Part shown: in pieces, positions 11,684 through 40,200 of the stretch
Position numbering within the stretch: position 1 is the first letter of the stretch
Layout of the letters: every line of letters begins with the position of its first letter
Assembly: GCF_003691585.1 (NCBI RefSeq)
Contig: NZ_CP033169.1
Coordinates: 682,001 to 746,000 of the forward strand
From: Biomaibacter acetigenes
Lineage (GTDB): Bacteria > Bacillota > Thermosediminibacteria > Thermosediminibacterales > Tepidanaerobacteraceae
Length of the DNA: 64,000 bases
Direction: 5' to 3'
The notes under the pieces: model-generated
Seen by the model: the letters and a program-made list of their open reading frames with translations, nothing else
The model's database searches: none
Told to the model about the DNA's origin: nothing
Translations under genes and position numbers: made by a program

Positions 11684-11704
11684 TTAACCTTTTTGTAACA
11701 AATG

Positions 11705-11733
11705 TTGCAATAAAAAGAAACGTATGTTACAAT
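11705..11733 (+). promoter_or_regulatory. sigma-A-type promoter for fetAB
   Basis: TTGCAA and TACAAT are separated by 17 bp. The expected transcript start near 11740 means a TTG at 11743 would be leaderless, and supports a later translation start. Confidence 0.55.
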
Positions 11734-11778
11734 CTAAGTAAATTGAATCAATTTCTACATTGTCTGGGGGAAGGAGAC

Positions 11779-12516: not shown

Positions 12517-13268
12517 ATGCGATTTCGCTGACACTGGCATCAAGCCTTGTTCTAATATCGATATTTATCTCTTATTACCAAAAACTGGGTGTTGAAAAGG
12601 AAATAGTCGTTGGCACCATCCGAGCGGTTATTCAGCTCACAATCGTAGGATATATCCTTCATTACATTTTTGCCGCCAACAACTTCTTCTTTACACTGGC
12701 CATGGTGACGGTTATGATCATCGTTGCCGGCAACAATGCGGCAAAGAGGGGCAGGGGCATACCTGGGGTCTTTTATTACATAACCGTATCCATTGCTATC
12801 GGCACCGCCATAACTTTGGCCATATTGATATTATTTGGGACTGTTCATTTCAGGCCCCAGGAAGTGATACCGGTGGCCGGAATGATAATAGGCAATTCCA
12901 TGGTATCATCAGGCCTTACAGTGTCGAGATTAAAAGATGAGATGAAGAACCGAACCCTGGAAATTCAAACGGCGTTAGCTCTGGGAGCAAGTGCCCGGCA
13001 GGCTGTCCAAAAGATACTGAAGATATCTCTCAAGACCGGTATGATGCCTACTATAGATGGTATGAAGACCCTGGGCATAGTCCAGCTCCCTGGCATGATG
13101 ACGGGTCTTATCCTGGGCGGAGTTGATCCTATAAATGCAGTAAAATACCAGATCATGGTCACATTCATGCTGGCCTCCACCGTGGCCATTTCATGCTTTT
13201 GCGTAACATTTCTGACCTATAAAGAGTTCTTCACGCCATATCATCAGTTGAAAGTTGGGGTTAAGTAA
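12513..13268 (+). CDS. fetB: FetB/UPF0014 family permease
   Basis: The 251-residue integral membrane protein has about seven hydrophobic segments and the conserved UPF0014 stretch MIIGNSMVSSGLTVSRL, followed by LALGASARQAV and the TIDGMKTLGIVQLPGMMTG block. It should form the membrane channel for the preceding ATPase. No terminator is visible after it; the 170-bp spacer that follows holds the LacI-gene operator. Confidence 0.9.
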   Translation: MNAISLTLASSLVLISIFISYYQKLGVEKEIVVGTIRAVIQLTIVGYILHYIFAANNFFFTLAMVTVMIIVAGNNAAKRGRGIPGVFYYITVSIAIGTAITLAILILFGTVHFRPQEVIPVAGMIIGNSMVSSGLTVSRLKDEMKNRTLEIQTALALGASARQAVQKILKISLKTGMMPTIDGMKTLGIVQLPGMMTGLILGGVDPINAVKYQIMVTFMLASTVAISCFCVTFLTYKEFFTPYHQLKVGVK

Positions 13269-24979: not shown

Positions 24980-25012
24980 ATGGATTTTCCTGAAGAAAAT
25001 CCATTTTTTTAT
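24980..25012 (+). terminator. terminator of the peptide transporter operon
   Basis: A 10-bp stem (ATGGATTTTC / GAAAATCCAT) with loop CTGAA is followed by TTTTTTATTT. From here to the first sugar-operon gene there are about 340 bp, holding the palindrome at 25148, a stretch of eight G (25193-25200), and a short upstream frame. Confidence 0.8.
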
Positions 25013-25298: not shown

Positions 25299-25358
25299 AT
25301 GGTAGATAATTTAAATGCTTCATTAAATCATGAAATATTAGGGAGGAAAAATATATGA
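25299..25358 (+). CDS. possible 19-codon leader peptide overlapping the sugar-binding-protein gene
   Basis: ATG at 25299, with GTGAGG 7 bp upstream, opens a 19-codon frame (MVDNLNASLNHEILGRKNI) that stops with TGA overlapping the ATG of the binding protein (ATGA). The arrangement would allow translational coupling. The peptide shows no recognised pattern, so this may be chance. Confidence 0.3.
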   Translation: MVDNLNASLNHEILGRKNI

Positions 25359-26410
25359 AAAAAGTTTTATCCATTCTCCTGATAGTATTGATGGTGGGTT
25401 TGATTCTGGCCGGATGCTCAAGCAAGCAGGCCCAGCAGCCCGCACAACAGGAACAGGCTCAGCAGCAACAGCAGTCCCAACCGCAGCAAGAACAGGCCAA
25501 AAAAGATAAATATGAATTTGCAGTAATAGTCAAAGCTACCGACTCGGATTTCTGGCAGTATGTTTTAATCGGCGCCAATAATGCCGCAAAAGATAATCCG
25601 GCCATCCATGTGACCACATATGGCCCCCCTTCCGAAGCCGATATCGATAAACAGGTTTCGATACTGGAAAATGTGGTAAACCAAAAACCCGATGCCATAG
25701 TTATAGCTTCAACCAGCTCCGACGCAACGGTTCCCGCTCTTGAAAAGGCTCACGATCAGGGTATTAAAATCATAACCATAGACAACAAGGTAAAGACAGA
25801 CAAAATCGATTCATTCCTGGCTACCGACAATATTGAAGCCGGTGGAAAAGCCGCACAAAAACTCGTGGATGAATTGAAGGCAAAGGGGATTCCGCTGAAA
25901 GGCAAGGTAGGTATCATTAGCGCTATGGCTGGAGTTCAGGTTTTGATAGATCGCGACAAGGGTTTTACCGACAAGTTGAAAGAACTTGCCCCTGACATTC
26001 AGATTGTCGGGCCGAGATATGTGGACAATGATGTGCTCAAAGCTGTAAGCGCCGCGGAAAATATTTTGACCGCCAATAAAGATGTCATCGGTTTCTTTGC
26101 GGACAACAACATGACCGGCGACGGGCTATCCAGGGTTATTACTGAAAGAAAATTGCAAGACAAAGTGGTGGCAGTGGCTTTCGACTCCGACCCCGAAGAA
26201 ATTAAGGCATTAGAAAGCGGAGCCCTCAAGGCTTTGATTCTGCAGGATCCGTACGGCATGGGATACAAGGGCGTAATGAGTGCTTACGATGCGCTTCAGG
26301 GCAAGACTCTTGAAAAATACATCAACACGGGTTCGACTGTAGTGACCAAAGAAAATATGAATCAGCAGGAAATCAAGGAATTACTCGATCCCACATTGAA
26401 AAAGAAGTAA
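25355..26410 (+). CDS. sugar ABC transporter substrate-binding lipoprotein (RbsB type)
   Basis: The 351-residue protein has a lipoprotein signal (LAGC, cysteine 21), a Gln-rich linker (about 24-48) and a periplasmic-binding-protein type 1 sugar-binding domain with FWQYVLIGANNAAKD and ITIDNKVKTDKIDSFLATDN. GGGAGG precedes the ATG. It leads a 17-gene operon and should bind a pentose, deoxypentose or related polyol. Confidence 0.92.
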   Translation: MKKVLSILLIVLMVGLILAGCSSKQAQQPAQQEQAQQQQQSQPQQEQAKKDKYEFAVIVKATDSDFWQYVLIGANNAAKDNPAIHVTTYGPPSEADIDKQVSILENVVNQKPDAIVIASTSSDATVPALEKAHDQGIKIITIDNKVKTDKIDSFLATDNIEAGGKAAQKLVDELKAKGIPLKGKVGIISAMAGVQVLIDRDKGFTDKLKELAPDIQIVGPRYVDNDVLKAVSAAENILTANKDVIGFFADNNMTGDGLSRVITERKLQDKVVAVAFDSDPEEIKALESGALKALILQDPYGMGYKGVMSAYDALQGKTLEKYINTGSTVVTKENMNQQEIKELLDPTLKKK

Positions 26411-26418
26411 AATTAATC

Positions 26419-26458
26419 GGGATAGGGCTAAAAAAGCCCTATCCCCTTGTAAAAGGGG
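26419..26458 (+). repeat. twin hairpins between sugar-binding-protein and ATPase genes
   Basis: The first hairpin has an 11-bp stem (GGGATAGGGCT / AGCCCTATCCC, 26419-26445) with loop AAAAA. The second (26443-26458) pairs CCCCTT with AAGGGG, the likely ribosome binding site of the ATPase gene. They share CCC at 26443-26445, so the two folds compete. Confidence 0.55.
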
Positions 26459-26465
26459 TTATGTT

Positions 26466-27971
26466 ATGGCGGGACAGGAAATAGTAAGAATGGAAGGAAT
26501 TACCAAAGAATTCCCCGGAGTAAGAGCTCTTTCAAACGTCAACCTAACGGTAAAAAAAGGAGAAGTACATGCGATAGTAGGAGAAAACGGCGCCGGAAAA
26601 TCCACTCTGATTAAAATACTCATGGGAGTATACCAGAAGGACAAAGGCAAGATTTTCATAGAAGGCAGAGAGGTAAATATCGCAAATCCCCTGGTGGCTA
26701 AAGAATACGGTTTGGGGGCCGTTTACCAGGATATTACACTGGCTCCCCATCTTTCCGTGGGAGAGAATTTCTTTCTGGGCAAGCTGCCGGTCAAAAACGG
26801 CCTGATAGATTGGACCACTGTATACAAAGTAACCGAAGAAACTCTAAAAAAACTGGATATAAATATTGATCCGAGAAAAAGATTAAAAGACCTGCCGGTA
26901 GCCCAGCAGGAAATGGTAGCTATTGCCAAGATGATTTATGAAAAGGTCAAGCTTGTAATTTTCGATGAGCCGACGGCGCTATTGACCAATGAAGAAACTC
27001 AGAAACTATTCGAAATCATAGATAGGTTGAAAAAAGACGGAGTAGGGGTCATATATATCTCACACAGACTTGAAGAAATATTTGGCATATGCGATACTGT
27101 GACGGTCTTGAAAGACGGCGAGTGGGTGGCCACGGTACCGGTGTCGGAGGTCAAAGAAGACCGCCTGATATCCATGATGGTGGGCCGTGACATAAAGGAC
27201 ATATACTCCATAAAACAATACAATACCCGGGATGTAGTGCTCGAAGTAAAAAATTTGACCAGAGAACCGAGGTTCAGAAATATTAATTTCAAACTTTATA
27301 AAGGCGAAATACTGGGAATGTTTGGCCTGGTAGGGTCTGGCAGGACCGATATAGTCCGATGCATTTTTGGGGCCGACAGGGCCGATGCAGGAGAAATATA
27401 TGTGGGTGGCGTCAAGCAATCGCTGAATTCACCCATAGATGCAATAAAGGCTGGAATCGGTTTTTTGCCTGAAGACAGAAAATTGCAGGGCCTGGCTTTA
27501 CAGCTTCCGGTTATGACAAATACAAACATTGTAATATATGAGAATATATCAAAGTTCGGAATTATTGACGGAAGAGAAGAAAAGAAGAGAGCGAAAAAAT
27601 ATGTCGAGGAATTAAATATTAAAACTCCGTCCGTCTATCAGAAAGTAAAAAAGTTGAGCGGAGGAAACCAGCAAAAAGTGGTAGTATCGAAATGGTTGAA
27701 CGCTGAGAGCAAAATATTCATATTTGATGAACCTACGGTCGGGGTTGATGTGGGCGCAAAACTTGAAATCTACAGATTGTTTGAAAACCTTACATCCCAG
27801 GGGGCGTCTATTATCTTGATTTCTTCCTATCTGCCGGAGGTCATGGGCCTTGCAAAGAGAATACTGGTCATGTATGAAGGAAATTGCACCGGCATAGTAA
27901 ACAGGAATGAAGTTACAGATGAAGACATACTCAGATTGGCTTCAGGATTATCGATAGAGGGCAACAACTGA
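26466..27971 (+). CDS. sugar ABC transporter ATP-binding protein (RbsA/MglA type)
   Basis: The 501-residue protein has two fused ATPase domains. The first has Walker A GENGAGKST and Walker B LVIFDEPTALLT. The second has a degenerate Walker A (GLVGSGRTD), signature LSGGNQQKVV and FIFDEPTVGVDVG, as is usual for the family. It energises the RbsC-type permease that follows. Confidence 0.94.
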   Translation: MAGQEIVRMEGITKEFPGVRALSNVNLTVKKGEVHAIVGENGAGKSTLIKILMGVYQKDKGKIFIEGREVNIANPLVAKEYGLGAVYQDITLAPHLSVGENFFLGKLPVKNGLIDWTTVYKVTEETLKKLDINIDPRKRLKDLPVAQQEMVAIAKMIYEKVKLVIFDEPTALLTNEETQKLFEIIDRLKKDGVGVIYISHRLEEIFGICDTVTVLKDGEWVATVPVSEVKEDRLISMMVGRDIKDIYSIKQYNTRDVVLEVKNLTREPRFRNINFKLYKGEILGMFGLVGSGRTDIVRCIFGADRADAGEIYVGGVKQSLNSPIDAIKAGIGFLPEDRKLQGLALQLPVMTNTNIVIYENISKFGIIDGREEKKRAKKYVEELNIKTPSVYQKVKKLSGGNQQKVVVSKWLNAESKIFIFDEPTVGVDVGAKLEIYRLFENLTSQGASIILISSYLPEVMGLAKRILVMYEGNCTGIVNRNEVTDEDILRLASGLSIEGNN

Positions 27972-27988
27972 ATGCAGGAGGGTATCCG

Positions 27989-28954
27989 ATGAGCATCAAT
28001 TCAAGCGCTAAAAAAATATTAGGCAAAGATAAATCTTTATCGGAAGGAACTATAATAATAGTTTTTCTGGCTCTTTTTGTACTGCTTTCCGTAGCGGTAA
28101 ACGGTTTTTTTACCGCCAACAATCTTTCAAACCTGGTAAGGCAGACTTCAATTAACGGCGTCATAGCTCTGGGCATGACATTTGTAATAGTATCCGCCGG
28201 AATCGATCTGTCGGTAGGTTCCGTAGTGGGATTTTCCGGCATGTTTGCGGCGATTTTAATGACGCAAATGGGTATGAGCGCCGCAGTTTCAACAATACTC
28301 GCTCTGATTGCCGGGACTTTGGTTGGCCTGATAAACGGCATCCTGATCTACGACGGGAAAGTGCCGCCCTTTATTGCCACATTAGGCACGATGACTGTAT
28401 TCAGAGGAGTCATAATGCTGATCAGCGGAGCGAGAATGGTATCGGGTCTTCCCAAATCATTCGTGAATTTTGCTCAGACAAGTTTTTTGGGAATGCCTTC
28501 GCTTTTTGTTGTATGGGTTGTAATGATTCTGATTTCATCGTTTATCATAGCTAAAACCAGATTCGGCCGCAACATCTATGCTATCGGCAGCAATACGGAG
28601 GCCGCCAGGCTCAGCGGCATCAATATCCGAACAAATATGTACATGATATACGGCTACAGTGCATTGATGTCTTCCATTGCCGGCATCATGCTGGTGTCCC
28701 GGCTGGCCAACGGAATCCCCACTGCCGGGGGCGGATATGAATTGGATGCCATTGCTGCTGCAGTCATCGGCGGCGCAAGTTTGAACGGTGCCGAGGGTTC
28801 TATTATCGGAACGGTTGTGGGCGCCATGTTGATGTCGACTCTGCGCAATGCGGGGGACCTGCTGGGCATTGATCCGTTTATCCTTCAGATATTGATCGGT
28901 GCTTTGATTGTGGCGGCCGTCTTGATCGACCAGGTAAAAAAGCAGAATAAATAG
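27989..28954 (+). CDS. sugar ABC transporter permease (RbsC type)
   Basis: The 321-residue membrane protein has 8-10 hydrophobic segments and the family stretch AIGSNTEAARLSGI with a C-terminal GGASLNGAEGSIIGTVVGA. GCAGGAGGG precedes the ATG. Only one permease is present, so it should act as a homodimer. Confidence 0.93.
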   Translation: MSINSSAKKILGKDKSLSEGTIIIVFLALFVLLSVAVNGFFTANNLSNLVRQTSINGVIALGMTFVIVSAGIDLSVGSVVGFSGMFAAILMTQMGMSAAVSTILALIAGTLVGLINGILIYDGKVPPFIATLGTMTVFRGVIMLISGARMVSGLPKSFVNFAQTSFLGMPSLFVVWVVMILISSFIIAKTRFGRNIYAIGSNTEAARLSGINIRTNMYMIYGYSALMSSIAGIMLVSRLANGIPTAGGGYELDAIAAAVIGGASLNGAEGSIIGTVVGAMLMSTLRNAGDLLGIDPFILQILIGALIVAAVLIDQVKKQNK

Positions 28955-28983
28955 AATTAATAAAGGTAAAAGAGGTGACAACC

Positions 28984-29967
28984 ATGTTAAAGAGACGAAT
29001 CGGAACTACGGAATTGGAAGCATCGGTCATCGGTTATGGTTGCTGGGTTATATCGGGCAGCGATTTCTGGACGGGTACCGGGGACGAATCATCGATAAAA
29101 GCTGTTCAGACAGCTTATGACATGGGGATCAACTTTTTTGACGTCGCTCCGGTATACGGTTTCGGCCACGCGGAGGAACTCCTGGGCAAAGCCTTAAAAG
29201 GAAAGAGGGGAAAGATCATAATCGCCTCGAAATGCGGGCTGGTTTGGGACGATCAAAAAAGAATAACAAACCTGCTTTCAAAGCGGAGCATTTTGAAAGA
29301 AATAGACGACAGCTTGAGAAGACTGGGGACCGATTATATAGATATATACCAGATGCACTGGCCCGATTACAATACGCCGATTGAGGAGACCATGGACGCA
29401 TTGAATCAGATAAAAAAGGAAGGGAAAATAAGATATATAGGCGCATCGAATTTTCCCGTCAAACTGCTTAATGAAGCAAGAAAATACGGGGAAATAGTAT
29501 CGCATCAATGCCTTTACAACATGATAGATAGAAACGCCGATTTTTATCACAACATACCGCTTTATTACAGGACCGAGGAAGAGATTATTCCTGACTGCAA
29601 AGAGAATAAAACGGCTTTTATACCTTACAGTCCTCTTTGCCAGGGACTATTGACAGGAACCTTTAAACCCGGGGAAAACTTTGATGAAAAGGATGTGAGA
29701 AATGCCAATCCGGAACTTAAAGGCGAAAAACTTGCCAGGAATCTTCAAATCGTAGAAGAGTTAAAAAAAGTCGCAGAAAGGATAGGTAAGCCGCTTTCTC
29801 AAATAGCCCTCAACTGGCTGATTAAAAATGAAACGGTAACCACCATCATTGCCGGAGCCACAAAAACCGCACATATAAAGGACAATGTAGAAAGCGCCGC
29901 ATGGGAGCTGGATAATGAAACATACAAAGAAATCAACACAATTCTTGATAAATATCAAAAAAAGTAA
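28984..29967 (+). CDS. aldo/keto reductase
   Basis: The 327-residue NAD(P)H-dependent barrel enzyme carries the family tetrad: Asp and Tyr in FFDVAPVYGFGHAE, Lys in IIASKCGL and His in YQMHWPD. ATG at 28984 follows AGAGGTG at proper spacing; the GTG within that site (28975) is unlikely to be the start. In this operon it may oxidise or reduce a free sugar before phosphorylation. Confidence 0.88.
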   Translation: MLKRRIGTTELEASVIGYGCWVISGSDFWTGTGDESSIKAVQTAYDMGINFFDVAPVYGFGHAEELLGKALKGKRGKIIIASKCGLVWDDQKRITNLLSKRSILKEIDDSLRRLGTDYIDIYQMHWPDYNTPIEETMDALNQIKKEGKIRYIGASNFPVKLLNEARKYGEIVSHQCLYNMIDRNADFYHNIPLYYRTEEEIIPDCKENKTAFIPYSPLCQGLLTGTFKPGENFDEKDVRNANPELKGEKLARNLQIVEELKKVAERIGKPLSQIALNWLIKNETVTTIIAGATKTAHIKDNVESAAWELDNETYKEINTILDKYQKK

Positions 29968-30008
29968 TATGTTTAATGTAGAAAATATTATAGCAAAGGA
30001 ATGAAATA

Positions 30009-30758
30009 ATGAATCTGGAAGCCGCAAAACTTAACAAAGACATACCTGTGCCGCTTTATTACCAGCTAAAAGAAATACTGCTGTCATATATTCACAAAAA
30101 TCAGCTGAATGCCGGTGATCCTATTCCCACGGAAATTGAACTTTGCCAGATTTTTAATATCAGCAGGCCCACTGTAAGGCAGGCCATCAATGAATTGGTG
30201 AGAGAAGGATATCTGAAAAAAATAAAGGGTAAGGGGACATTTATCACCGAACCGAAAATCAATCAGGAGTATACTCACAGAATCATAAGCTTCAATGATG
30301 AGATGATACAAAAAGGTCTGGTTCCAAAAACAAAAGTTTTAAAACAAAGATACATTGCATCCGATGAACAGGTGGCAAAAAAGTTGAATTTAACCGTGGG
30401 AGAAGAAGTCTTTCACTTAAAAAGGCTGCGCTACACCAACGACGAGCCGATTGTCTTTTTAGACAGCTACGTACCGCTAAAATTGTGTCCCGGGATCATC
30501 GAAATTGATTTTGTGAACAATTCTCTTTATGCCACTTTTGAACAAAAATACGGTATTATCGTCAAAAGAGCTGTAAGGTCTATTGAAGTCGATTTGGCGG
30601 GGGAGTACGAGGCAAAGCTGCTGCATATAAAGGAAGGGGCTCCGATTCATTATTTTGAAACGGTGGCTTATAATCAGGATAATGTAGCCGTCGAATATAC
30701 GATTTCCCGTTACAGGGGAGACAAGAGCAAGTTTATAGTGGAGCTTGTCAATGCCTAA
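30009..30758 (+). CDS. GntR-family regulator with UTRA domain
   Basis: The 249-residue protein has an N-terminal winged helix (about 10-78, YYQLKEILLSYIHKN, then FNISRPTVRQAINELVREGYLKK) and a UTRA ligand domain (about 95-245). HutC-subfamily members usually sense a phosphorylated sugar or a related effector and repress the operon they belong to. The palindrome at 25148 is its most likely site. It is embedded inside the operon. Confidence 0.92.
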   Translation: MNLEAAKLNKDIPVPLYYQLKEILLSYIHKNQLNAGDPIPTEIELCQIFNISRPTVRQAINELVREGYLKKIKGKGTFITEPKINQEYTHRIISFNDEMIQKGLVPKTKVLKQRYIASDEQVAKKLNLTVGEEVFHLKRLRYTNDEPIVFLDSYVPLKLCPGIIEIDFVNNSLYATFEQKYGIIVKRAVRSIEVDLAGEYEAKLLHIKEGAPIHYFETVAYNQDNVAVEYTISRYRGDKSKFIVELVNA

Positions 30759-30798
30759 ATTATTTACTAAATTTTAATGTTATTGGGAGGTCATCGCA

Positions 30799-32316
30799 AT
30801 GCCGAAATATCTTCTGGCACATGATCTGGGGACTTCCGGAAACAAGGCTACTCTGTACACGACCGATGGCGAACTGGTAGCGAGCAGGACATATCCATAT
30901 GATACGAAATATTTCAATGCCAATTGGGCGGAGCAGAATCCCGACGACTGGTGGCAGGCGGTCTGCATTTCCACCGGGCAGCTCATCCGGGGCATAGACC
31001 CGAGCCAAATAGCATGCGTTTCCTTCAGCGCGCAGATGATGGGGTGCCTGTGTGTTGACAGGCAGGGAAGGCCTTTGAGAAATTCAATAATTTATTCAGA
31101 CCAGAGGGCGGTAAAAGAGACGGATAAAATACTGCAACACATAGACGCCATGGATTTTTATAAAATCGTGGGCCACCGGGCCAGTCCTTCCTATTCCCTG
31201 GAAAAGCTGATGTGGATCAAAAACAACGAACCCGACATTTATAAAAATACTTACAAGATGCTGAATGCAAAAGACTATATCGCTTTTAAACTGACCGGCA
31301 AAATGGTTACGGATTATACGGATGCGTCCGGAACCAATGCCTTTGATTTAAACACTTACAAATGGTCGGATAAAATAATCGATATCGCCGGTATAGATGA
31401 AGACAAACTGCCGGAAGCTCGCGAATCCACTTTTGTCGTAGGTGAGATAACAAAGGAAGCAGCGGAAGAAACGGGTCTAAAAGAGGGCACACCGGTGGTC
31501 ATCGGCGCCGGGGACGGTATGTGTGCTTCGGTGGGTGCGGGATGTATCAAGCCGGGGATTGCCTACAATTATGTAGGGTCATCGTCATGGATAGGGATTA
31601 CATCAGAAAAACCCGTATATGATGTGAAAATGAGGACTATGACGTGGGCCCATGCCGTTCCCGGCTACGTCAATCCCATAGGGACCATGCAGACCGCCGG
31701 TACGTCGTACAGCTGGCTTAAAAATGAGATTTGCAAAATTGAGACAAAAGAGGCGCTGGAAAAAGGCGTAAGTCCGTATGAGATAATCAATGATGAAATA
31801 GAAAAGTCTCCTCCCGGGGCCAGGGGAATCCTGTTTTTACCCTATCTCCTCGGTGAAAGGACACCTCACTGGAATCCCAATGCCAGAGGTGCTTTTATAG
31901 GAATAACCGTCGGGCATAAACGTGAAGATCTGTTGAGGGCTGTCATGGAAGGAGTGACATACAATTTAAATACTATAGTGAATATCTTTAAAAATTACGT
32001 TCCAATCGACAGCATGATTGTCATTGGCGGAGGGGCCAAAGGGAAAGTATGGCGCCAGATGATGGCGGATATATATGGCGTGAAGATATTAAAGCCCAAT
32101 TATCTTGAAGAAGCCACATCCATGGGAGCGGCCGTCATCGGCGGCATAGGAGTCGGTGAATTCAAGAGCTTTGACGCCATAAATAAATTTATAAAAATTG
32201 AGAGTGAACATGACCCCGACCCTTCAAAAAGAGAAATTTATAATAAAACATATCAAGTTTTTCTTCATTCATATGACGCTTTGACGGGTATATATGAAGA
32301 ACTGGCTAGACTTTAA
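30799..32316 (+). CDS. FGGY-family carbohydrate kinase
   Basis: The 505-residue protein is closest in look to xylulokinases: N-terminal LAHDLGTSGNKATLYT, catalytic Asp239 in GAGDGMCASVG and the C-terminal IVIGGGAKGKVWRQMMADI. It phosphorylates a ketose, polyol or sugar acid of unknown identity. GGGAGGT precedes the ATG. It is the first of several enzymes whose order suggests kinase, oxidation and lactone opening steps. Confidence 0.9.
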   Translation: MPKYLLAHDLGTSGNKATLYTTDGELVASRTYPYDTKYFNANWAEQNPDDWWQAVCISTGQLIRGIDPSQIACVSFSAQMMGCLCVDRQGRPLRNSIIYSDQRAVKETDKILQHIDAMDFYKIVGHRASPSYSLEKLMWIKNNEPDIYKNTYKMLNAKDYIAFKLTGKMVTDYTDASGTNAFDLNTYKWSDKIIDIAGIDEDKLPEARESTFVVGEITKEAAEETGLKEGTPVVIGAGDGMCASVGAGCIKPGIAYNYVGSSSWIGITSEKPVYDVKMRTMTWAHAVPGYVNPIGTMQTAGTSYSWLKNEICKIETKEALEKGVSPYEIINDEIEKSPPGARGILFLPYLLGERTPHWNPNARGAFIGITVGHKREDLLRAVMEGVTYNLNTIVNIFKNYVPIDSMIVIGGGAKGKVWRQMMADIYGVKILKPNYLEEATSMGAAVIGGIGVGEFKSFDAINKFIKIESEHDPDPSKREIYNKTYQVFLHSYDALTGIYEELARL

Positions 32317-32348
32317 CTGCACTTTAATCGAAGGAATGTGATAACAGC

Positions 32349-33272
32349 ATGAAAATACTGGTGACACCCAGGTCCTTTGCTAAACATGATCCAAAACCCC
32401 TGGAGATGCTTCTCGAAAAAGGCTTTGAAATAGTGCAAAATCCGTATCAAAGGCCGCTCGTGGAAGAGGAAATAACCGAGCTTATAAAAGATGTAGACGG
32501 CGTAATAATAGGCGTTGATCCTCTTACAAGAAATGTCCTTGAAAAAGCTGAGAATCTAAAAGCCATATCAAAATACGGTGTCGGTGTCGATAACATTGAC
32601 CTTGATTATGCAAAAGAGCGGGGGATAAAGATATCAAGGACCGTTGGAGCCAATTTTAACGCTGTAGCGGATTTTACCGTATGTCTTATGCTGGCAGTTG
32701 CCAGGAAAATCAATGTAATCGACAGGGAGTGCAGAAGAAACAACTGGAACAAAATCATGACGATGGAAATATATGGTAAAACGCTCGGAGTAGTTGGAAC
32801 TGGCAATATAGGCAAAGGTGTAATTAAAAGGTCAAAAGGTTTCGATATGAATATCCTTGCCTATGATGTTTATCCGGATGAAAAATTTGCTAAAGAATAC
32901 GGCGTGAAGTATGTGAGCCTTGAAGAGCTGTACAAAAACGCCGATGTAATTTCACTTCATGTGCCTTTGACGGAAGATACTTACAAAATGATAGGAAAAA
33001 GAGAACTTCATATGATGAAGAAAAATGCCATATTGATTAACACTGCCCGGGGTGGCCTCATTGATGAGGAGGCTTTATATGAAGCGTTAAAAGAAAATGT
33101 GATATACGGTGCAGGCATCGACGTTTTTGAGCATGAACCGCCGACCAATAAAAAGCTCTTTGAGCTGGACAATATGGTAATCAGTTCTCACAATGGGGCT
33201 TCTACTTACGAGGCGGTGGATAATATGGGGCTGATGGCTGTGGAAAATCTTGTAAGGGACCTATTTTCTTGA
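32349..33272 (+). CDS. D-2-hydroxyacid dehydrogenase (phosphoglycerate dehydrogenase-like)
   Basis: The 307-residue enzyme has the NAD-binding motif GVVGTGNIGKG (about 147-157) and catalytic Arg234 (NTARGG), Glu263 and His281 (SHNGA). It lacks the ACT domain of biosynthetic SerA, so it probably serves this pathway. The substrate would be a phosphorylated or free 2-hydroxy acid. It overlaps the next gene by TTGA. Confidence 0.88.
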   Translation: MKILVTPRSFAKHDPKPLEMLLEKGFEIVQNPYQRPLVEEEITELIKDVDGVIIGVDPLTRNVLEKAENLKAISKYGVGVDNIDLDYAKERGIKISRTVGANFNAVADFTVCLMLAVARKINVIDRECRRNNWNKIMTMEIYGKTLGVVGTGNIGKGVIKRSKGFDMNILAYDVYPDEKFAKEYGVKYVSLEELYKNADVISLHVPLTEDTYKMIGKRELHMMKKNAILINTARGGLIDEEALYEALKENVIYGAGIDVFEHEPPTNKKLFELDNMVISSHNGASTYEAVDNMGLMAVENLVRDLFS

Positions 33273-34237
33273 GGTCAAATATTCAGACTGTTCTCGGGCT
33301 TATCCCGAAAGAAAAACTGGGTTTTTGCCACAGCCATGAGCACTTATTCATAGCCCCCGGGAAGTCGGAAAAGGTAAATCCGGCTTTGAGAATAGACGAT
33401 TTGGGCAGGACCGTAGAAGAACTGAAAATGTATAAAAATTTGGGCGGTCAGAGTATTGTGGATGCGCAGCCGGTTGGATGCGGAAGGATGGCCGAATATC
33501 TGGCCGAATCATCCGAAAAGGCGCATGTCCATATAATTGCTTCTACGGGATTTCACAAGATGATTTTTTACGATGAGGACCATTGGATTAAAAACATAAA
33601 TGAGGATAAACTGGCGGATATTTTTATCCATGAGCTTGAAAAGGGTATGTTTACAGACGGAGATTATAAAGCGCCGGAAAAGGCAATTTCATCGAAAGCG
33701 GGCATAATTAAAACTGCTTCTGACAGTGAAGGCATAACGGATGAATACAAAAAACTATTTCTGGCCGCTGCCAGAGCCTCCAGATGTACCGGTTTTTGCA
33801 TCTTGAGCCACACGGAAATGGGAAAACATGCCCTGGAACAAATAGAACTTTTTGTAAAGGAAGGCGTGAACCCGGATTCCATCATAATCTGCCATCTTGA
33901 CAGAGATTTGAGCGACATGGGATATCACAGAGCTGTGGCGGAAACCGGAGTATTTATGGAATATGATACTATAGGCAGGTTTAAATATCACAGCGATCTG
34001 GAGGAAGCAAAATTCATTGTAGAGATGGTTGAATCGGGTTTTGAAAACAAAATATTGCTGGGCCTCGATACCACCAGGGAGAGGCTGCTAAGCTACGGTG
34101 GCAGTATAGGCCTGGGATATATAAAGCAAAAGTTTATACCGCTGCTCCTGGAGCTGGGTATAACGCAAGAAATGATAGAGAAATTTACAATAATAAACCC
34201 ATCAGAAGCTTTGGCAAAAAGGAGTGAAACCGTATAG
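33269..34237 (+). CDS. phosphotriesterase-family hydrolase (lactonase-like)
   Basis: The 322-residue barrel enzyme keeps all expected binuclear metal ligands: H23 and H25 in HSHEH, K148 in GIIKTAS (the lysine carboxylated in this family), H181, H209 in ICHLDRD and D267 in LLGLDTTR. Characterised bacterial relatives in COG1735 open phosphorylated furanose lactones, which would fit beside the dehydrogenases here. The start is a TTG overlapping the previous stop. Confidence 0.85.
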   Translation: MRSNIQTVLGLIPKEKLGFCHSHEHLFIAPGKSEKVNPALRIDDLGRTVEELKMYKNLGGQSIVDAQPVGCGRMAEYLAESSEKAHVHIIASTGFHKMIFYDEDHWIKNINEDKLADIFIHELEKGMFTDGDYKAPEKAISSKAGIIKTASDSEGITDEYKKLFLAAARASRCTGFCILSHTEMGKHALEQIELFVKEGVNPDSIIICHLDRDLSDMGYHRAVAETGVFMEYDTIGRFKYHSDLEEAKFIVEMVESGFENKILLGLDTTRERLLSYGGSIGLGYIKQKFIPLLLELGITQEMIEKFTIINPSEALAKRSETV

Positions 34238-34238
34238 A

Positions 34239-35186
34239 ATGGCTGTAGAATTACCGAAAAAGGCAACACAACCGACAATGTATTTCATTGGAGTCACTAC
34301 AAAGCAATCTTCAATAATGAAAGTTTTTCCTCTGTGGGCAGAGGAACTGGGGCTCAAAGATGCGGTCCTGAAAGGGATAGATATGGAGATCCATGCAGAT
34401 CCGGATGATTACAGGAAGGTAGTGGACTTTATCAAAAATGATGAACAATCTCTGGGAGCGCTGGTTACAACTCATAAGATTGATTTGTACAATGCCGCCA
34501 AAGATATGTTTGAATATCTGGACCCCTATGCGAAAGCCTTTGGAGAATTATCTTCCATATCGAAAAAAGAAGGCAGACTGGAAGGCTACGCGAAGGACCC
34601 CATTTCAAGCGGATTGGCGCTGGAAGCGTTTTTACCGGAGGATTACTGGAGGAGTTACGGCGGTGAGGTTTTCATTATGGGAGCCGGAGGAAGCTCCATT
34701 GCGGTAACATCTTACTTGATTAACAAAAAGCATAATGGAAATTATCCTTCAAAAATAATCGTTTCCAACAGGAGCAAACCCAGGCTGGTTTCCATGGAAA
34801 AAATCATTAAACAATTAAATCCGCCGATTCCCATTGAATATCACTTGTGCCCCCAGCCAGAGGACAATGATAAACTGCTTGAAAAATTAAAACCTCATTC
34901 ACTTATAATCAACGCCACAGGCCTGGGGAAAGACAGGCCGGGATCGCCGCTGACCGATGCATGCGAATTCCCCCGGGACAGCCTCGTATGGGAGTTTAAC
35001 TATAGAGGGGATCTGGATTTTATGCATCAGGCTTTAAGACAGAAAGATAATAAAAATCTATATGTGGAAGATGGATGGATATACTTCATACACGGATGGA
35101 CTCAGGTTATTGCCGAAGTGTTTCACATCGATATCGACAGCGCAAGATTGAAGCGGCTGAGCGAAATTGCGCAAAGCTACAGATGA
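34239..35186 (+). CDS. shikimate dehydrogenase-like oxidoreductase
   Basis: The 315-residue protein matches the AroE/YdiB fold: N-terminal GVTTKQSSIMKVFPLW, a catalytic-type Lys in ALVTTHKIDLY, an NAD(P) motif MGAGGSSIAVTSYL (near 145-158) and INATGLGKD. It is longer than typical AroE (about 270-290) and is not next to other aromatic genes, so I infer a catabolic dehydrogenase of a polyol or sugar acid. ATG at 34239 directly follows the upstream stop; a GTG at 34224 is possible. Confidence 0.78.
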   Translation: MAVELPKKATQPTMYFIGVTTKQSSIMKVFPLWAEELGLKDAVLKGIDMEIHADPDDYRKVVDFIKNDEQSLGALVTTHKIDLYNAAKDMFEYLDPYAKAFGELSSISKKEGRLEGYAKDPISSGLALEAFLPEDYWRSYGGEVFIMGAGGSSIAVTSYLINKKHNGNYPSKIIVSNRSKPRLVSMEKIIKQLNPPIPIEYHLCPQPEDNDKLLEKLKPHSLIINATGLGKDRPGSPLTDACEFPRDSLVWEFNYRGDLDFMHQALRQKDNKNLYVEDGWIYFIHGWTQVIAEVFHIDIDSARLKRLSEIAQSYR

Positions 35187-35205
35187 GACATGGGAGATGG
35201 CAGAA

Positions 35206-35781
35206 ATGAACGAAATATTGAGACCGTTTGATATTGATTTTGATTTGACAACCGGCTTGTCCAGGTTAAAAAAAGCCTCAAAAAGATATCTTTCAAATAT
35301 GGCGGACATGTTCTATGACACCGAAAAAGCCGGTGATATCTTGAAAAATGAAGACCCCCTCATTTATGAATTTTATGAGATGGGGATTCCTGAAACTGTC
35401 GGAGACATCGCCTTTGGTACCAGCATTGTATATCCGGGGAAAATCGGCAATGAATACTTTATGACAAAAGGCCACTTCCATACGGTATTGGAAACGGCAG
35501 AGGTTTACTTCTGCATAAAAGGAAAAGGCTATATGCTGATGGAAACCCCTGAAGGCCAGTGGGACGCTCAGGAATTTGCCCCGGGTAAAGCCGTATATGT
35601 CCCCAAAAGATGGGCCCATAGAAGCATCAATGTGAGCCCGACCGAGCCTTTAATTACATTTTTTGCCTTCAGGGCCGATGCGGGACACGATTATGGAACG
35701 ATAGAAACAAAAGGGTTCAGAAAACTTATTGTCGAAAAGGACGGCAGACCTGTGGTAATTGACAACCCCAGATGGAGTTAA
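35206..35781 (+). CDS. cupin-type glucose-6-phosphate isomerase
   Basis: The 191-residue protein matches the small cupin phosphoglucose isomerase known from Pyrococcus, not the large SIS-type enzyme. Metal ligands are visible as H90 and H92 (TKGHFHT), E99 and H138 (RWAHRSI), almost the same numbering as the archaeal enzyme. It interconverts fructose 6-phosphate and glucose 6-phosphate. ATG at 35206 follows GGGAG at 9 bp. Placed before HPS and PHI, it would drain F6P from them. Confidence 0.88.
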   Translation: MNEILRPFDIDFDLTTGLSRLKKASKRYLSNMADMFYDTEKAGDILKNEDPLIYEFYEMGIPETVGDIAFGTSIVYPGKIGNEYFMTKGHFHTVLETAEVYFCIKGKGYMLMETPEGQWDAQEFAPGKAVYVPKRWAHRSINVSPTEPLITFFAFRADAGHDYGTIETKGFRKLIVEKDGRPVVIDNPRWS

Positions 35782-35805
35782 AAAATATTTTTTGGGGAGT
35801 TTTTT

Positions 35806-36471
35806 ATGAAACTTCAATTATCGTGTGATCTTATCAGCATTGATCGTGCTGTCAAGCTGGCGGAAGACATACTGCCCTTTATAGATATAATAGAAATGGG
35901 AACGCCTTTTTTATTGCAAAACGGTATAAATGCAGTGAAGACATTCAAAGAAAGATTTCCGACCAAACTTATTCTTGCCGATATGAAAATCATGGACAGC
36001 GGATATGAAGAGGCAAAGATGGCTTTTGAAGCGGGAGCGGATATCGTCACGGTGCTGGCGGTATCCTCGCCCAATACAATTCGAAACGCCATTGTGTGTG
36101 CGAAAGAGTTTGGCAAAGAGGTAATGGCGGATATGATAGAAGTGAAGAACATTATAGAAAGAGCTAAATTCCTGCAAGATTTGGGAATAGATTATATTTG
36201 CGTGCACACCGCGGTGGACAATCAGAAATCCGAAAACCCGCTGGCAGATTTGTATACGTTAAAACAAAGTATTGAAAATGCAAGGTTGGCAGTAGCCGGT
36301 GGAATCAAACTTGAAAACATAGATGCTGTTATATGTGAAAAGCCCGATATTGTCATAGTGGGCGGGGGCTTGACCAAAGCGCCCAATCCCCGGGAGATTG
36401 CAAGAGCCATGAAAGAAAAAATGGAAAATATAAGCAGGATAGGTAAAGATGATGAAATTTGCGGAGTATAA
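35806..36471 (+). CDS. 3-hexulose-6-phosphate synthase-like decarboxylase-fold enzyme
   Basis: The 221-residue protein belongs to the orotidine-phosphate decarboxylase suprafamily: Asp8, E30 in IIEMGTP, the DxKxxD motif (D59, K61, D64 in LADMKIMD), H134 in CVHTAVDNQ and a phosphate site in VAGGI and IVGGG. HPS condenses formaldehyde with ribulose 5-phosphate or does the reverse; 3-keto-L-gulonate-6-phosphate decarboxylase has the same fold. The adjacent PHI gene favours HPS, but the dehydrogenases upstream leave decarboxylation possible. GGGGAG precedes the ATG. Confidence 0.85.
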   Translation: MKLQLSCDLISIDRAVKLAEDILPFIDIIEMGTPFLLQNGINAVKTFKERFPTKLILADMKIMDSGYEEAKMAFEAGADIVTVLAVSSPNTIRNAIVCAKEFGKEVMADMIEVKNIIERAKFLQDLGIDYICVHTAVDNQKSENPLADLYTLKQSIENARLAVAGGIKLENIDAVICEKPDIVIVGGGLTKAPNPREIARAMKEKMENISRIGKDDEICGV

Positions 36472-37006
36472 GAATAAGATCCTCAATGAAATTTCCCTGA
36501 CCCTCGATGCGGTGTCGGAGGAAAAGGTCGATGAGCTGACAGAAGCCATACGTTCCGCCGGCAGGATTTTTGTTGACGGCGCGGGAAGATCCGGATATAT
36601 GATGAGATGCTTTGCCATGAGGCTGATGCACATCGGCTTTTGCACATATTTTCTGGGCGAAACGGTTACTCCCGGCGCAAGAGAAAAAGATATATTGATA
36701 ATAGGCTCAGGTTCGGGCGAAACAGGTTCGCTTGTCGCCAGGGCGAAAAAGGCAAGAAAGATTGGGTGCAAGATCGCAGTCATTACCATATCGGGTTGCT
36801 GCAGTCTAGGCAGCCTGGCTGATTGGGTTATTGAAATTCCGGCTCCCACGGCAAAAATAGAAACTGAATATAAATCCATTCAGCCCATGGGAAATTTGTT
36901 TGAACAGGCTCTTTTGTTGACATGCGAAATCATGATTATGAAAATCATGGAGAAGACCGGAATTTCATCCGACGAAATGTTTAAAAACCATGCCAATTTA
37001 GAATAA
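36449..37006 (+). CDS. 6-phospho-3-hexuloisomerase (SIS domain)
   Basis: The 185-residue SIS-domain enzyme, with RIFVDGAGRSGYMMRCFAMRL and IGSGSGETGSLV, matches PHI, which converts hexulose 6-phosphate to fructose 6-phosphate. It overlaps the HPS-like gene by 23 bp, indicating translational coupling; a second ATG is at 36452. Confidence 0.88.
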   Translation: MMKFAEYKNKILNEISLTLDAVSEEKVDELTEAIRSAGRIFVDGAGRSGYMMRCFAMRLMHIGFCTYFLGETVTPGAREKDILIIGSGSGETGSLVARAKKARKIGCKIAVITISGCCSLGSLADWVIEIPAPTAKIETEYKSIQPMGNLFEQALLLTCEIMIMKIMEKTGISSDEMFKNHANLE

Positions 37007-37022
37007 AAGGGAGGAAGTTGGA

Positions 37023-37424
37023 ATGATAAAAAAGGGAATCCTTCATCCGCAATTGAAGCATGTTTTGACATCGATAGGCCACCAGGATTATCTTGCCATG
37101 GTGGACTCCGGATACTGCGTCCCACTGGGGGTCGAGAGAGTGGACCTGGCATTTCTGCCAAATATTCCGACAATGCTTCAGGTTCTGGATGGCGTTCTGG
37201 ATGAGCTTGCCGTAGAAAAAATAATACTGGCGGAAGAGATTCACGAACATGCTCCGGAATTTTTAAAAGAGATTAAAAAAAGATTTCCCGATAATTTCCC
37301 CATTGAGTTTGTGCCGCACGTGGAATTGAAAGAAATAATAAAGCAATCCAAAGCGGTAGTACGCACCGGCGATTTCGGGACCCATTACGGCAACATGGTT
37401 CTTGTGGCGGGTTGCGTATACTAA
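37023..37424 (+). CDS. RbsD/FucU-family sugar mutarotase, divergent
   Basis: The 133-residue protein matches the RbsD/FucU family, which interconverts ring forms of free sugars. It keeps His20 (SIGHQDY) but has VDSGYCVPLG where canonical RbsD, and the second copy at 39090, have DAGLPIP. A different sugar is therefore likely. GGGAGG precedes the ATG. Confidence 0.87.
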   Translation: MIKKGILHPQLKHVLTSIGHQDYLAMVDSGYCVPLGVERVDLAFLPNIPTMLQVLDGVLDELAVEKIILAEEIHEHAPEFLKEIKKRFPDNFPIEFVPHVELKEIIKQSKAVVRTGDFGTHYGNMVLVAGCVY

Positions 37425-37445
37425 AATTGATTCGGAGGAGTATCT

Positions 37446-38396
37446 ATGAAAAAGCCAAAAATAACTGTGCTCGGCAGCTTTGTGGTCGACTTAATGAGCA
37501 GGACTCCCCATTTGCCCGCAAGGGGTGAGACCGTGTTTGGAGGGCCTTTTAAACTGGGGCCCGGAGGAAAAGGCTCAAATCAGGGGGTTGCCGCTCATAA
37601 GGCGGGAGCCGATGTGACAATGGTCACAAAACTCGGGAGAGATGATTTTGCCCAAATTGCCTTAAATAGCTTTAAAAGTGTAGGAATGAGGACAGACTAT
37701 ATATTTTTTGACAATGAACATGAGACAGGCGCAGCCCTTATCATGGTTGAAAACGGCACCGGGGAAAATGAGATCGTGGTTTCCATAGGAGCGTGCAATT
37801 ACATTACCGATGACGAAGTGGAATCGGTAAGGGAAGAAATAAGGAATTCGAAGCTGTTGTTGACACAGCTGGAAACAAATTTAAGTGCGGTATATAAGGC
37901 AATCGACATAGCCAACGAATACGGAGTAATGGTCGTTTTAAATACTGCTCCCGTTCAGCCTGTTCCCGAGCAAATATATAAAAAAGTCGACGTTTTGACG
38001 CCCAATGAGACCGAGGCATCGATTCTGTCGGGGATTGAAATAAAAGATATAGAAGGGGCAAAAAAAGCCGCCGAGTATTTTGTTGAGAAAGGGGTAAAAT
38101 CTGTCGTCATAACTCTGGGTTCGAATGGGGTATATGTAAAATCGCCGGAATTTGAGGGCCATGTTCCCGCTTTTGCGCTGGACAACGTAATCGACACCAC
38201 TGGCGCCGGTGATGCCTTTAACGGCGGGTTTGCCACGGCTCTGGCGGAAGGCAAAAGCATAAAAGAGGCAGCCATTTTTGGAAATGCCGTGGCCGGAATT
38301 TCGGTCACTCGGATAGGAACCGCTCCTGCCATGCCCTGGAGAGAAGAAGTCGAAGAATTTTTAAAAAAGCATTTTTACGAAGGTGATAAAAAATGA
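37446..38396 (+). CDS. rbsK: ribokinase-family sugar kinase
   Basis: The 316-residue PfkB-family kinase has the N-terminal [21 protein letters not shown], the [17 protein letters not shown] stretch and the catalytic [13 protein letters not shown]. It could phosphorylate ribose or deoxyribose; the immediately following deoC, overlapping by ATGA, favours deoxyribose. GGAGGAG precedes the ATG. Confidence 0.9.
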
Positions 38397-39052
38397 GCAG
38401 AAAACTTGCAAAATTCATCGATCATACACTGTTAAAACCCGAAGCGACATCAGACCAGATCAAAGCCCTGTGCAAAGAGGCAATAGAATACGGCTTTGCT
38501 TCCGTCTGTATAAATCCGTGCCGGGTAAAACTGGCTTCAGAGCTGTTGAAAGGTACAGATGTGAAAGTATGTACGGTGATAGGATTTCCTTTAGGAGCCG
38601 CAACTCCGGAAGTTAAAGCCTTTGAGACGAAAAACGCCATTGACAATGGCGCCAGCGAAGTGGATATGGTGATGAACATCGGCGCCATGAAAGAAAAGGA
38701 TTACGAACTGGTGGAAAAGGATATTCGAGCAGTCGTGGAAGCCGCCGGTGGAAAGGCGATTGTTAAGGTGATTTTGGAGAATTGTTTGCTGGAAAAAGAC
38801 GAAATAAAAAAAGCATGCGAAATCTGTATTAAAGCCGGAGCGGATTTTGTCAAAACTTCCACCGGTTTTAATAAATCCGGTGCAACTCTGGAGGATGTAA
38901 AATTGATGAAGGAAACGGTGAAGGACAGAGCCGGGGTAAAAGCCGCCGGAGGCATCAAAGACGCAATAACCGCAAAAGCCATGATCGAGGCGGGAGCATC
39001 CCGGTTGGGCACCAGTTCTTCAATAAAAATTGTTTCTGAAATGGAAGACTAG
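38393..39052 (+). CDS. deoC: deoxyribose-phosphate aldolase, DeoC copy 2
   Basis: The 219-residue class I aldolase has [11 protein letters not shown], Asp91, Lys125 in VKVILEN and Schiff-base Lys154 in DFVKTSTGF. It is a canonical DeoC, coupled to the kinase. With the mutarotase and kinase it forms a complete deoxyribose to glyceraldehyde-3-phosphate plus acetaldehyde module. Confidence 0.93.
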
Positions 39053-39089
39053 ATAAGTTATCATTTTTAATTCAATGTAAAGGAGCGTT

Positions 39090-39491
39090 ATGTGGATGAA
39101 AAAGGGCGGTATATTAAACAAAAGACTGAATGAGGTCATCGCTAGCCTCGGTCACATGGATACGATAGTCATATGTGACGCCGGTTTGCCTATTCCCGAT
39201 GAAAATCAGAGAGTGGACCTGGCATTCGAACCGGGAACTCCAGGACAAATCCAGGTATTGAAAGCCGTATTAAATGAAGTTGTAGTTGAAAAAGTAATTA
39301 TGGCTGAGGAAAGCAAGAAAGTAAGCCCGGAGATGCACGAAGAGATATTAAAATTACTTGGCGATAAAGAAATTGAATATGTACCCCATACCGAGTTTAA
39401 GGAAAGAAGTAAAAAGTCAAAAGCCATCATCAGAACCGGAGAATTTACTCCGTATTCGAATGTCATGCTGGTATGCGGCTGCGCTTATTAA
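39090..39491 (+). CDS. rbsD: RbsD-family D-ribose pyranase, canonical
   Basis: The 133-residue protein has the classical RbsD features KGGILN, His22 in SLGHMD, DAGLPIPDENQRVDLAF and a C-terminal IIRTGEFTPYSNVMLVCGC. It interconverts pyranose and furanose forms of ribose or a similar sugar for uptake or phosphorylation. AAAGGAG precedes ATG 39090; ATG 39096 is also possible. It is a second copy in the same operon. Confidence 0.92.
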   Translation: MWMKKGGILNKRLNEVIASLGHMDTIVICDAGLPIPDENQRVDLAFEPGTPGQIQVLKAVLNEVVVEKVIMAEESKKVSPEMHEEILKLLGDKEIEYVPHTEFKERSKKSKAIIRTGEFTPYSNVMLVCGCAY

Positions 39492-39507
39492 AAAAGGAGA
39501 AAAGAAA

Positions 39508-40200
39508 ATGGAATGTAATGTTACATTGAAAGACCTGGCGGGAATGATCGACAACACTAATTTGAAAGTTGATGTTCAAAGAGAAGATCTGGAAAAATTA
39601 TGCAAGGAAAGCATAAAGTATGGATTTAAATCTGTTGCCGTCAATCACTCTTCAATAAAATACTGCAGGCAATTGCTGGCGGGAACAGGTGTGGGAATTG
39701 TCACCGGCGTAAGTTATCCCCTGGGTACCAATACTCTGGAAGAAAAACTTTTTGAAACAAAACATACGATAGAAATAGGCGCCACTGAAATAGATTATGT
39801 GATAAACATTTCCGAACTTCGGGCAAAAAATTATGACTATATGAAAAAAGAGATGGAAGAAATACTGAAAGTATGCAGGCAAAACAACGTATTATGCAAA
39901 GTTATACTTGAAACTTATTATTTGACAGATGATGAAATCATAGCAATGTGTAAAATAGCATCTGAAGTTAAACCGGACTTTATAAAGACATCAACAGGAC
40001 AGATTCAGGGCGGCGGAGCCAGAGTGGAACACGTAAGCCTGATTAAGGAAGCCCTGGGTGACAGTGGAGTTCAGGTTAAAGCCGCGGGCGGAATTAAGAC
40101 TCTGGAAGACGCTCTGAACATGATAGAGGCAGGAGCGACAAGACTGGGGACAAGTTCGGGAACTAAAATCATGGAAGAATATATGGAAAGGTTCAGCTAG
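39508..40200 (+). CDS. divergent DeoC-family aldolase, copy 3
   Basis: The 230-residue protein keeps the DeoC catalytic set, Asp96, Lys131 (CKVILETYY) and Lys160 (DFIKTSTGQ), but differs around it: DNTNLKV for DHTxLKP, GVSYPLG for GFPLG, and TSTGQIQGGGAR for TSTGF-x2-GGAT. It is therefore probably a working Schiff-base aldolase with another substrate. AAAAGGAG lies ahead of the ATG at 39508; the in-frame extension to 39358 overlaps rbsD. It is the last gene of the operon. Confidence 0.85.
   Translation: MECNVTLKDLAGMIDNTNLKVDVQREDLEKLCKESIKYGFKSVAVNHSSIKYCRQLLAGTGVGIVTGVSYPLGTNTLEEKLFETKHTIEIGATEIDYVINISELRAKNYDYMKKEMEEILKVCRQNNVLCKVILETYYLTDDEIIAMCKIASEVKPDFIKTSTGQIQGGGARVEHVSLIKEALGDSGVQVKAAGGIKTLEDALNMIEAGATRLGTSSGTKIMEEYMERFS

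Follow-up and report, generated by a model that had tools for sequence, protein, structure and literature searches.

The question raised by this locus is what three overlapping genes, resembling a dehydrogenase, a lactonase and a shikimate dehydrogenase, do together. The window, meaning the whole stretch of DNA that was analysed, is 64,000 nucleotides of Biomaibacter acetigenes (contig NZ_CP033169.1, positions 682,001 to 746,000). The listing of its open reading frames gives, on the plus strand, a D-2-hydroxyacid dehydrogenase (2HDH; 32349-33272, 307 amino acids, ATG start), a hydrolase of the phosphotriesterase (PTE) family (33269-34237, 322 amino acids, TTG start) and an oxidoreductase that resembles the shikimate dehydrogenase AroE (34224-35186, 320 amino acids, GTG start). 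The first two frames overlap by 4 bases and the last two by 14, and a preliminary description that had reported three overlapping genes was right as to frames, families and coordinates. We give about even chances to the reading that places the trio in the middle of a conserved sugar-catabolic set, which would take a ketose phosphate through an aldose phosphate, a lactone and an aldonate phosphate to a 2-keto acid and then to an aldolase. A literature search, with most subscription journals outside it, returned no paper describing this gene set.

A gene set that recurs across phyla

The trio lies inside an operon-like run of 17 genes (25355-40200). The order of the run is a ribose-type ABC importer, an aldo/keto reductase, a GntR regulator, an FGGY kinase, the trio, a cupin-type phosphoglucose isomerase (cPGI), 3-hexulose-6-phosphate synthase (HPS), 6-phospho-3-hexuloisomerase (PHI), RbsD, ribokinase, DeoC, RbsD and DeoC. 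In a genome of the same genus the trio genes are found at 83-92% identity with their order kept, and they occur together again in distant loci, so we regard them as real genes and as a linked set that did not arise by chance.

We looked for the AroE-like family in a phylum sample of 398 genomes, where 4 genomes had it, and in 84,980 species genomes, where there were at least 573 relatives and the best 80 were kept. The window, two further loci (L006 and L007) and these 80 make up the 83 loci counted below, a sample that is biased to near relatives. It includes some near-duplicates: L010 appears to be on the same contig as L002/L005, L020 and L021 are from one species, L048 and L051 share a contig, and L042 and L045 come from one metagenome-assembled genome. 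Families at the loci were called at 60 bits, with profiles built from the clusters of this analysis. The kept relatives are mainly from Bacillota, with others from Atribacterota and one member each from Planctomycetota and Verrucomicrobiota. Relatives in Pseudomonadota were found in plasmid records, and the gene set recurs across several phyla.

The companions of the AroE-like gene in the 83 loci are 2HDH (65 loci), cPGI (64), PTE (55), the FGGY kinase (54), an aldolase of the type that splits 2-keto-3-deoxy-6-phosphogluconate (KDPG; the aldolase is called EDA below; 43) and GntR (38), as well as medium-chain dehydrogenases (MDR) of type a (44) and type b (23). The AroE-like gene adjoins cPGI in 58 of the 64 loci that have both and adjoins PTE in 33/55, and 2HDH is next to EDA in 21/42. 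All but one of the 43 EDA loci also have 2HDH; the exception is L032, where the AroE-like frame starts at contig base 450. On a tree of 62 AroE-like proteins, the linkage to PTE is scattered among many branches (45 rows, 11 changes). FGGY and PfkB kinases are together in only 1 of the 7 PfkB loci, and they may be alternative kinases.

In the plasmid collection there were 15 records with the AroE-like family, all of them proteobacterial, and where the gene was annotated it was labelled shikimate dehydrogenase or similar. All 15 loci have cPGI, the AroE-like gene, an FGGY kinase and a hydrolase of the metallo-beta-lactamase (MBL) fold, while 2HDH is present in 14 and EDA in 10. A common order is cPGI-EDA-AroE-like-2HDH-MBL-regulator, divergent from an ABC importer and the kinase. 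The one locus without 2HDH is L109 (Paraburkholderia), which has a short-chain dehydrogenase (SDR) between the AroE-like gene and MBL. The conserved set is therefore cPGI, the AroE-like gene, a hydrolase, 2HDH, the KDPG-type aldolase and a sugar kinase.

The AroE-like protein and the hydrolase beside it

A Pfam scan of the AroE-like protein gave no match at an E-value of 0.001. Its matches to the NCBIfam shikimate-dehydrogenase models are weak (best 41.7 bits against a cut-off of 413), and it has 31.8 bits to the aroE equivalog TIGR00507, short of the cut-off of 200.2, while the canonical AroE elsewhere in the same genome has 289.9. Judged by these scores, it cannot be taken for the shikimate dehydrogenase of the genome, and on this we agree with the preliminary description.

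It does share with the family of shikimate dehydrogenases (SDHs) and 5-ketofructose reductases the whole fold, the GxGG nucleotide motif and a Lys-Asp pair. The pair is K85 and D125, invariant in 62/62 aligned relatives, and by motif alignment it corresponds to the two catalytic residues of AroE, K65 and D102 in E. coli numbering. The GxGG motif is followed by NRS, which goes with NADP in AroE, and the enzyme is probably NADP-dependent. It is unlike that family in its identity, which is only 12-22%, in having S110 at the Asn position of the AroE GxVNT motif, and in having its own conserved motifs, which include NATGxGKDRPGSP and EDGW.YF..GWT in the alignment of the 62 relatives.

The AlphaFold2 model of the protein has a mean pLDDT (predicted local distance difference test) of 92.1. 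Its top Foldseek matches are shikimate dehydrogenases (E 8e-18 for 2hk9), and the VIA comparison with 3tnl (Z 28.0, root-mean-square deviation 2.8, 275 positions aligned) places the model in the SDH fold. For 5-ketofructose reductase the Z scores are 26.4 (7cok) and 25.8 (7col), and 7cok is inside the SDH range. Because these scores are in the same range, the modelled fold shows kinship but does not point to a substrate.

A different use of the same fold would make the AroE-like enzyme a keto-sugar reductase, working at C3 or C5, on the sugar ahead of the kinase or on its phosphate, with PTE, 2HDH and EDA on a side branch. A dehydrogenase would oxidise an odd sugar, the AroE-like enzyme would reduce it to the opposite stereochemistry, and glycolysis would be reached through the kinase and cPGI. 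There is a precedent for this in 7cok and 7col, and the 5-ketofructose reductase of Tatumella, which is annotated as a putative shikimate dehydrogenase, reduces 5-ketofructose (PMC7954740). In addition, several loci hold only the AroE-like gene, cPGI, FGGY, MDR and a Gfo/Idh dehydrogenase, and psicose 3-epimerase-type genes are present in 18/83 loci. However, 7cok appears no closer to the AroE-like protein than true SDHs are, and the profile match to 5-ketofructose reductase (E 9e-4) ranks under several SDHs. In addition, most loci link the AroE-like gene to a hydrolase from one or the other of two unrelated families, and in L006 (genome G130) PTE and the AroE-like gene stand alone side by side, with a cupin isomerase elsewhere in that genome. 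On balance we find the reductase unlikely.

At L007:12001-12459 (minus strand, genome G202), the match covered only the C-terminal part of an AroE-like gene, whose neighbours include a KDPG-type aldolase, 2HDH and an aldehyde ferredoxin oxidoreductase.

The window hydrolase has 161.4 bits to the PTE family PF02126 (cut-off 22.4). All six metal ligands named in the preliminary description (H23, H25, K148, H181, H209 and D267) are present, and they are found in 48/48 aligned relatives as well. The nearest solved structures are 3pnz (149 bits) and 3msr (148 bits), and we take 3pnz (Lmo2620) and 3msr/3ovg (MS0025) to be phosphofuranose lactonases of the PTE family. The window hydrolase is like these lactonases in its metal site, and they are its best solved relatives. 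It is unlike them in its score to the phospho-furanose lactonase model NF045706, which is 177 bits and far below the equivalog cut-off of 630; PTE relatives score 143-170 (four from other loci) and 148 (L006). In 3pnz, K244 and R275 are presumably the phosphate-binding residues. K239 of the window hydrolase aligns with K244 and is kept in 46/48 relatives, R270 aligns with R275 and is kept in only 33/48, and R272 and Y276 are invariant (48/48).

The 15 plasmid loci have the MBL-fold hydrolase in place of the PTE type in every case (PTE 0/15), and PTE and MBL never occur together in one locus among the 98 loci (83 and the 15 from plasmids). The only MBL among the 83 is at L089 (Verrucomicrobiota), which has no PTE. 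L089 and three plasmid loci supplied the sequences for the MBL profile, which leaves 12 independent plasmid hits. All 15 plasmid reading frames have the HxHxDH motif. Lactone hydrolysis is a known activity common to the PTE-type and MBL-fold families. The exchange of one family for an unrelated one at the same place in the set therefore supports a lactone-opening step and is the strongest evidence that we have for it, as well as an independent handle on function. The MBL hydrolases are like UlaG, the L-ascorbate 6-phosphate lactonase, in their fold and in a weak similarity, with three of the four scanned matching its model at 29-42 bits (maximum 42.3). They differ in staying below the cut-off of 306 and in belonging to another pathway.

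We also considered SMP-30 or NagB genes as lactonases that alternate with PTE. We dropped this, as they showed no exclusion: PTE is also there in 8 of the 14 loci with SMP-30 and in 6 of the 10 with NagB (61 loci, 4 kb flanks). The window's genome has a second PTE-family gene (G000:C1:2541228-2542139), 33% identical to the window hydrolase.

The order of steps and what weighs against it

The 2HDH matches PF02826 (213.9 bits, cut-off 25.1) and PF00389 (96.5 bits, cut-off 24.6), and its Arg-Glu-His triad (R234, E263, H281) is kept in 56/56 aligned relatives. It reaches 299.5 bits to the phosphoglycerate dehydrogenase equivalog TIGR01327, below the cut-off of 454. Enzymes of the D-2-hydroxyacid dehydrogenase family use open-chain 2-hydroxy acids, and for this reason we place 2HDH after the ring opening. 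This leaves the AroE-like enzyme, whose fold is suited to the oxidation of a ring hydroxyl, as the candidate for forming the lactone; most likely it is an oxidiser of a sugar phosphate.

The cPGI (35167-35781) has 90.5 bits to PF06560 (cut-off 20.7). It is like the known cupin-type phosphoglucose isomerases, with identity to the solved 1j3p at 91 of 185 aligned positions (49%) and with the ligand positions H103, H105, E112 and H151 kept in 59-60 of 60 relatives. It differs from them in its context, which here is sugar-catabolic sets in many bacteria, and in that its substrate is putative. This close homology, the frequent kinase (54/83 loci and 15/15 on plasmids) and the K239, R272 and Y276 residues of PTE together suggest a phosphorylated intermediate.

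The route would then run as follows. A dehydrogenase and the FGGY kinase would give a ketose phosphate, which cPGI, judging by its homology to phosphoglucose isomerase, would convert to an aldose phosphate. The AroE-like enzyme would oxidise the ring form of this aldose phosphate to a lactone, the PTE-type hydrolase (or MBL in Proteobacteria) would open the lactone to an aldonate phosphate, and 2HDH would oxidise C2 to give a 2-keto acid. Where a KDPG-type aldolase is present, it would split the 2-keto acid. The operon in the window does not include this aldolase, and there is one elsewhere in the genome.

Such a route would be like the Entner-Doudoroff pathway (Zwf, Pgl, Edd, Eda) in passing from a sugar phosphate through a lactone and an aldonate phosphate to a KDPG-type aldolase. 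It would differ in having the AroE-like enzyme for Zwf, PTE or MBL for Pgl, and 2HDH at the place of Edd. None of the 34 genomes searched had a match to Edd above the cut-off (TIGR01196, 708.25), and 33 of the 34 had weaker relatives of that fold. If the reading is true, sugar phosphates can reach 2-keto acids by another route, one that needs no homologues of Zwf, Pgl or Edd, and a family annotated as shikimate dehydrogenase is the sugar-phosphate oxidoreductase of a widespread catabolic route.

The preliminary description had also proposed an oxidation of a sugar, the opening of a lactone and a second oxidation. The lactone step in this proposal is supported by the metal site and the MBL swap, and two oxidations are still what we infer, but the order of the dehydrogenases is exchanged. 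In the original order, the lactone would come from 2HDH and the second oxidation from the AroE-like enzyme, and the HPS-fold enzyme would decarboxylate what results. The genes are indeed contiguous, and HPS is homologous to 3-keto-L-gulonate-6-phosphate decarboxylase (KGPDC), with 85-93 bits to KGPDC chains. On the other side, 2HDHs as a family work on open 2-hydroxy acids, and the HPS gene (35806-36471) is above its own cut-off (TIGR03128, 247.6 bits against 200), has HPS-type residues and is found in only 2 of the 83 loci, so we consider this order highly improbable.

The HPS residues in question are D109, V137 and A164. D109 and A164 match solved HPS chains, and V137 matches the KGPDC chain 1xbx, which we take to be a variant engineered toward HPS, and not 1xby, which has Arg there. 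The scores to the KGPDC models are below their cut-offs (NF009832, 121 bits against 250; NF009831, 87.8 bits against 294). The score above the HPS equivalog cut-off and the HPS-type residues speak against a KGPDC-like decarboxylase. Given these residues and the rarity of the gene, we dropped the idea that the pathway feeds a decarboxylation by HPS. HPS and PHI (36449-37006; TIGR03127, 224.8 bits against 160) are present, among the 83 loci, only in the window and in L010, which are of one genus. Together with cPGI they may make up a small ribulose monophosphate module. Between the two same-genus genomes (window 35806-37006 and L005 10545-11741), HPS is 71% and PHI 69% identical, against 83-95% for the other cassette genes, and from these identities HPS and PHI may have been exchanged in one lineage.

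Several points weigh against the lactone route. The first is the low score of the window hydrolase to the phospho-furanose lactonase model, given above. There are also loci that have the AroE-like gene and cPGI without PTE, 2HDH and EDA (L022, L027, L028, L036, L075 and L088, among others), above all in Atribacterota. For the 25 loci without PTE, a related PTE (42-52% identity) was found elsewhere in 8 genomes and in none of the other 17. It is also conceivable that the ring hydroxyl used by the AroE-like enzyme is a different one. Finally, the set would look redundant if the aldose phosphate were glucose 6-phosphate, as Zwf is present in 28 of the 49 genomes searched.

For the same reason, we dropped the AroE-like enzyme as a simple replacement of Zwf. 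A related possibility is a set dedicated to glucose 6-phosphate, in which the AroE-like enzyme and the hydrolase would be a second Zwf/Pgl pair. The 49% identity of cPGI to phosphoglucose isomerase fits this, as does the absence of Zwf from 21/49 genomes, including the window's own (G000), G362 and G130. However, the other 28 genomes have Zwf along with the set, and the sugar-specific ABC importers and dehydrogenases in the sets fit a peripheral sugar better. We think a glucose 6-phosphate pathway very unlikely.

There is a further difficulty at the aldolase. The textbook substrate of a KDPG-type aldolase is a 2-keto-3-deoxy acid, so without a dehydratase the enzyme must cut a non-deoxy 2-keto acid, giving hydroxypyruvate, unless the sugar is itself 3-deoxy. 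No dehydratase or glycerate kinase family recurred among the 69 extra neighbours that we scanned, and we dropped a hidden enzyme of either kind. These 69 were taken from 102 listed; the 33 omitted include window genes, near-duplicates and proteins already scanned. The result covers 25 of the 94 Pfam families that they matched, including every family with at least two members.

The route might instead serve a 3-deoxy sugar, such as the 3-deoxyfructose or 3-deoxyglucosone that comes from the heating or decay of sugar. The kinase and cPGI would act on a 3-deoxyketose, the AroE-like enzyme would make a 3-deoxy lactone phosphate, PTE or MBL would open it to 3-deoxy-6-phosphogluconate, 2HDH would give KDPG, and EDA would split this to pyruvate and glyceraldehyde 3-phosphate. 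Every enzyme would then be in its textbook reaction, and this would explain both an aldolase tied to 2HDH without a dehydratase and a HexR-like regulator. HexR senses KDPG, and the RpiR-type regulator of L101, the only plasmid cassette regulator scanned, is nearest to HexR, with 269 bits against a cut-off of 296. Glycyl radical enzymes in two cassettes (L051:1968-4334 and L052:7571-9874) also favour a 3-deoxy sugar; the one from L052, the only one compared, has diol and glycerol dehydratases as its nearest solved structures. Against it, three loci have L-fucose isomerase genes and one (L081) matches the psicose-3-epimerase model above its cut-off, which indicates ordinary sugars at those loci. 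We regard a 3-deoxy sugar as quite unlikely.

Remaining genes of the run and other neighbours

The run in the window is preceded by a terminator-like site at 24980-25004, which is a consensus match only. All of its genes are on the plus strand. The importer consists of an RbsB-type sugar-binding protein (25355-26410), which clusters with sugar-binding proteins of other loci, an RbsA-type ATPase (26466-27971) and an RbsC-type permease (27989-28954), the last two each with a cluster in 32 loci. The aldo/keto reductase (28975-29967) is found in 15/83 loci and has 229.5 bits to the YdjG type, below the cut-off of 550. It is followed by the GntR-family regulator (30009-30758), identified by family scan, and the FGGY kinase (30799-32316), which is of the XylB type (TIGR01312, 416.3 bits, cut-off 380.25).

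After PHI come the D-ribose pyranase RbsD (37023-37424; NF008761, 119.7 bits, cut-off 93), ribokinase (37446-38396; TIGR02152, 325.8 bits, cut-off 299.65), the deoxyribose-phosphate aldolase DeoC (38393-39052; TIGR00126, 303.3 bits, cut-off 117.3) and second copies of RbsD (39090-39491; 169.5 bits) and DeoC (39508-40200; 216.8 bits). HPS, PHI, ribokinase, RbsD and DeoC are additions to the conserved set. The doubled copies of RbsD and DeoC in the window (37023-40200) cross-match the same-genus locus L005 at 44-47% identity, and DeoC is also present in the cassettes of L054, L055, L088, L103 and L104.

Cyclitol and levoglucosan routes were considered for the Gfo/Idh dehydrogenases and dropped, as the relatives of IolG and of levoglucosan dehydrogenase are below cut-offs. 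Loci with Gfo/Idh tend to lack PTE, which is present in 7/19 of them and in 33/42 of the other loci.

Another entry group joined to the core is present in seven loci (L035, L038, L041, L046, L047, L020 and L053). It is made up of a GH88-like hydrolase, which is a relative of Agrobacterium BglB, together with an SMP-30 type protein and, in many cases, a PfkB kinase. The 69 scanned neighbours included a single Firmicute-type fructose-1,6-bisphosphatase. It is most likely the frame of 658 amino acids at L048:3518-5494, just before the cassette, and a frame at L049:3539-5515 resembles it. In L010, a zinc dehydrogenase (11587-12609) lies between cPGI and HPS; it is absent from the window, and its best relative in the window's genome is 35% identical.

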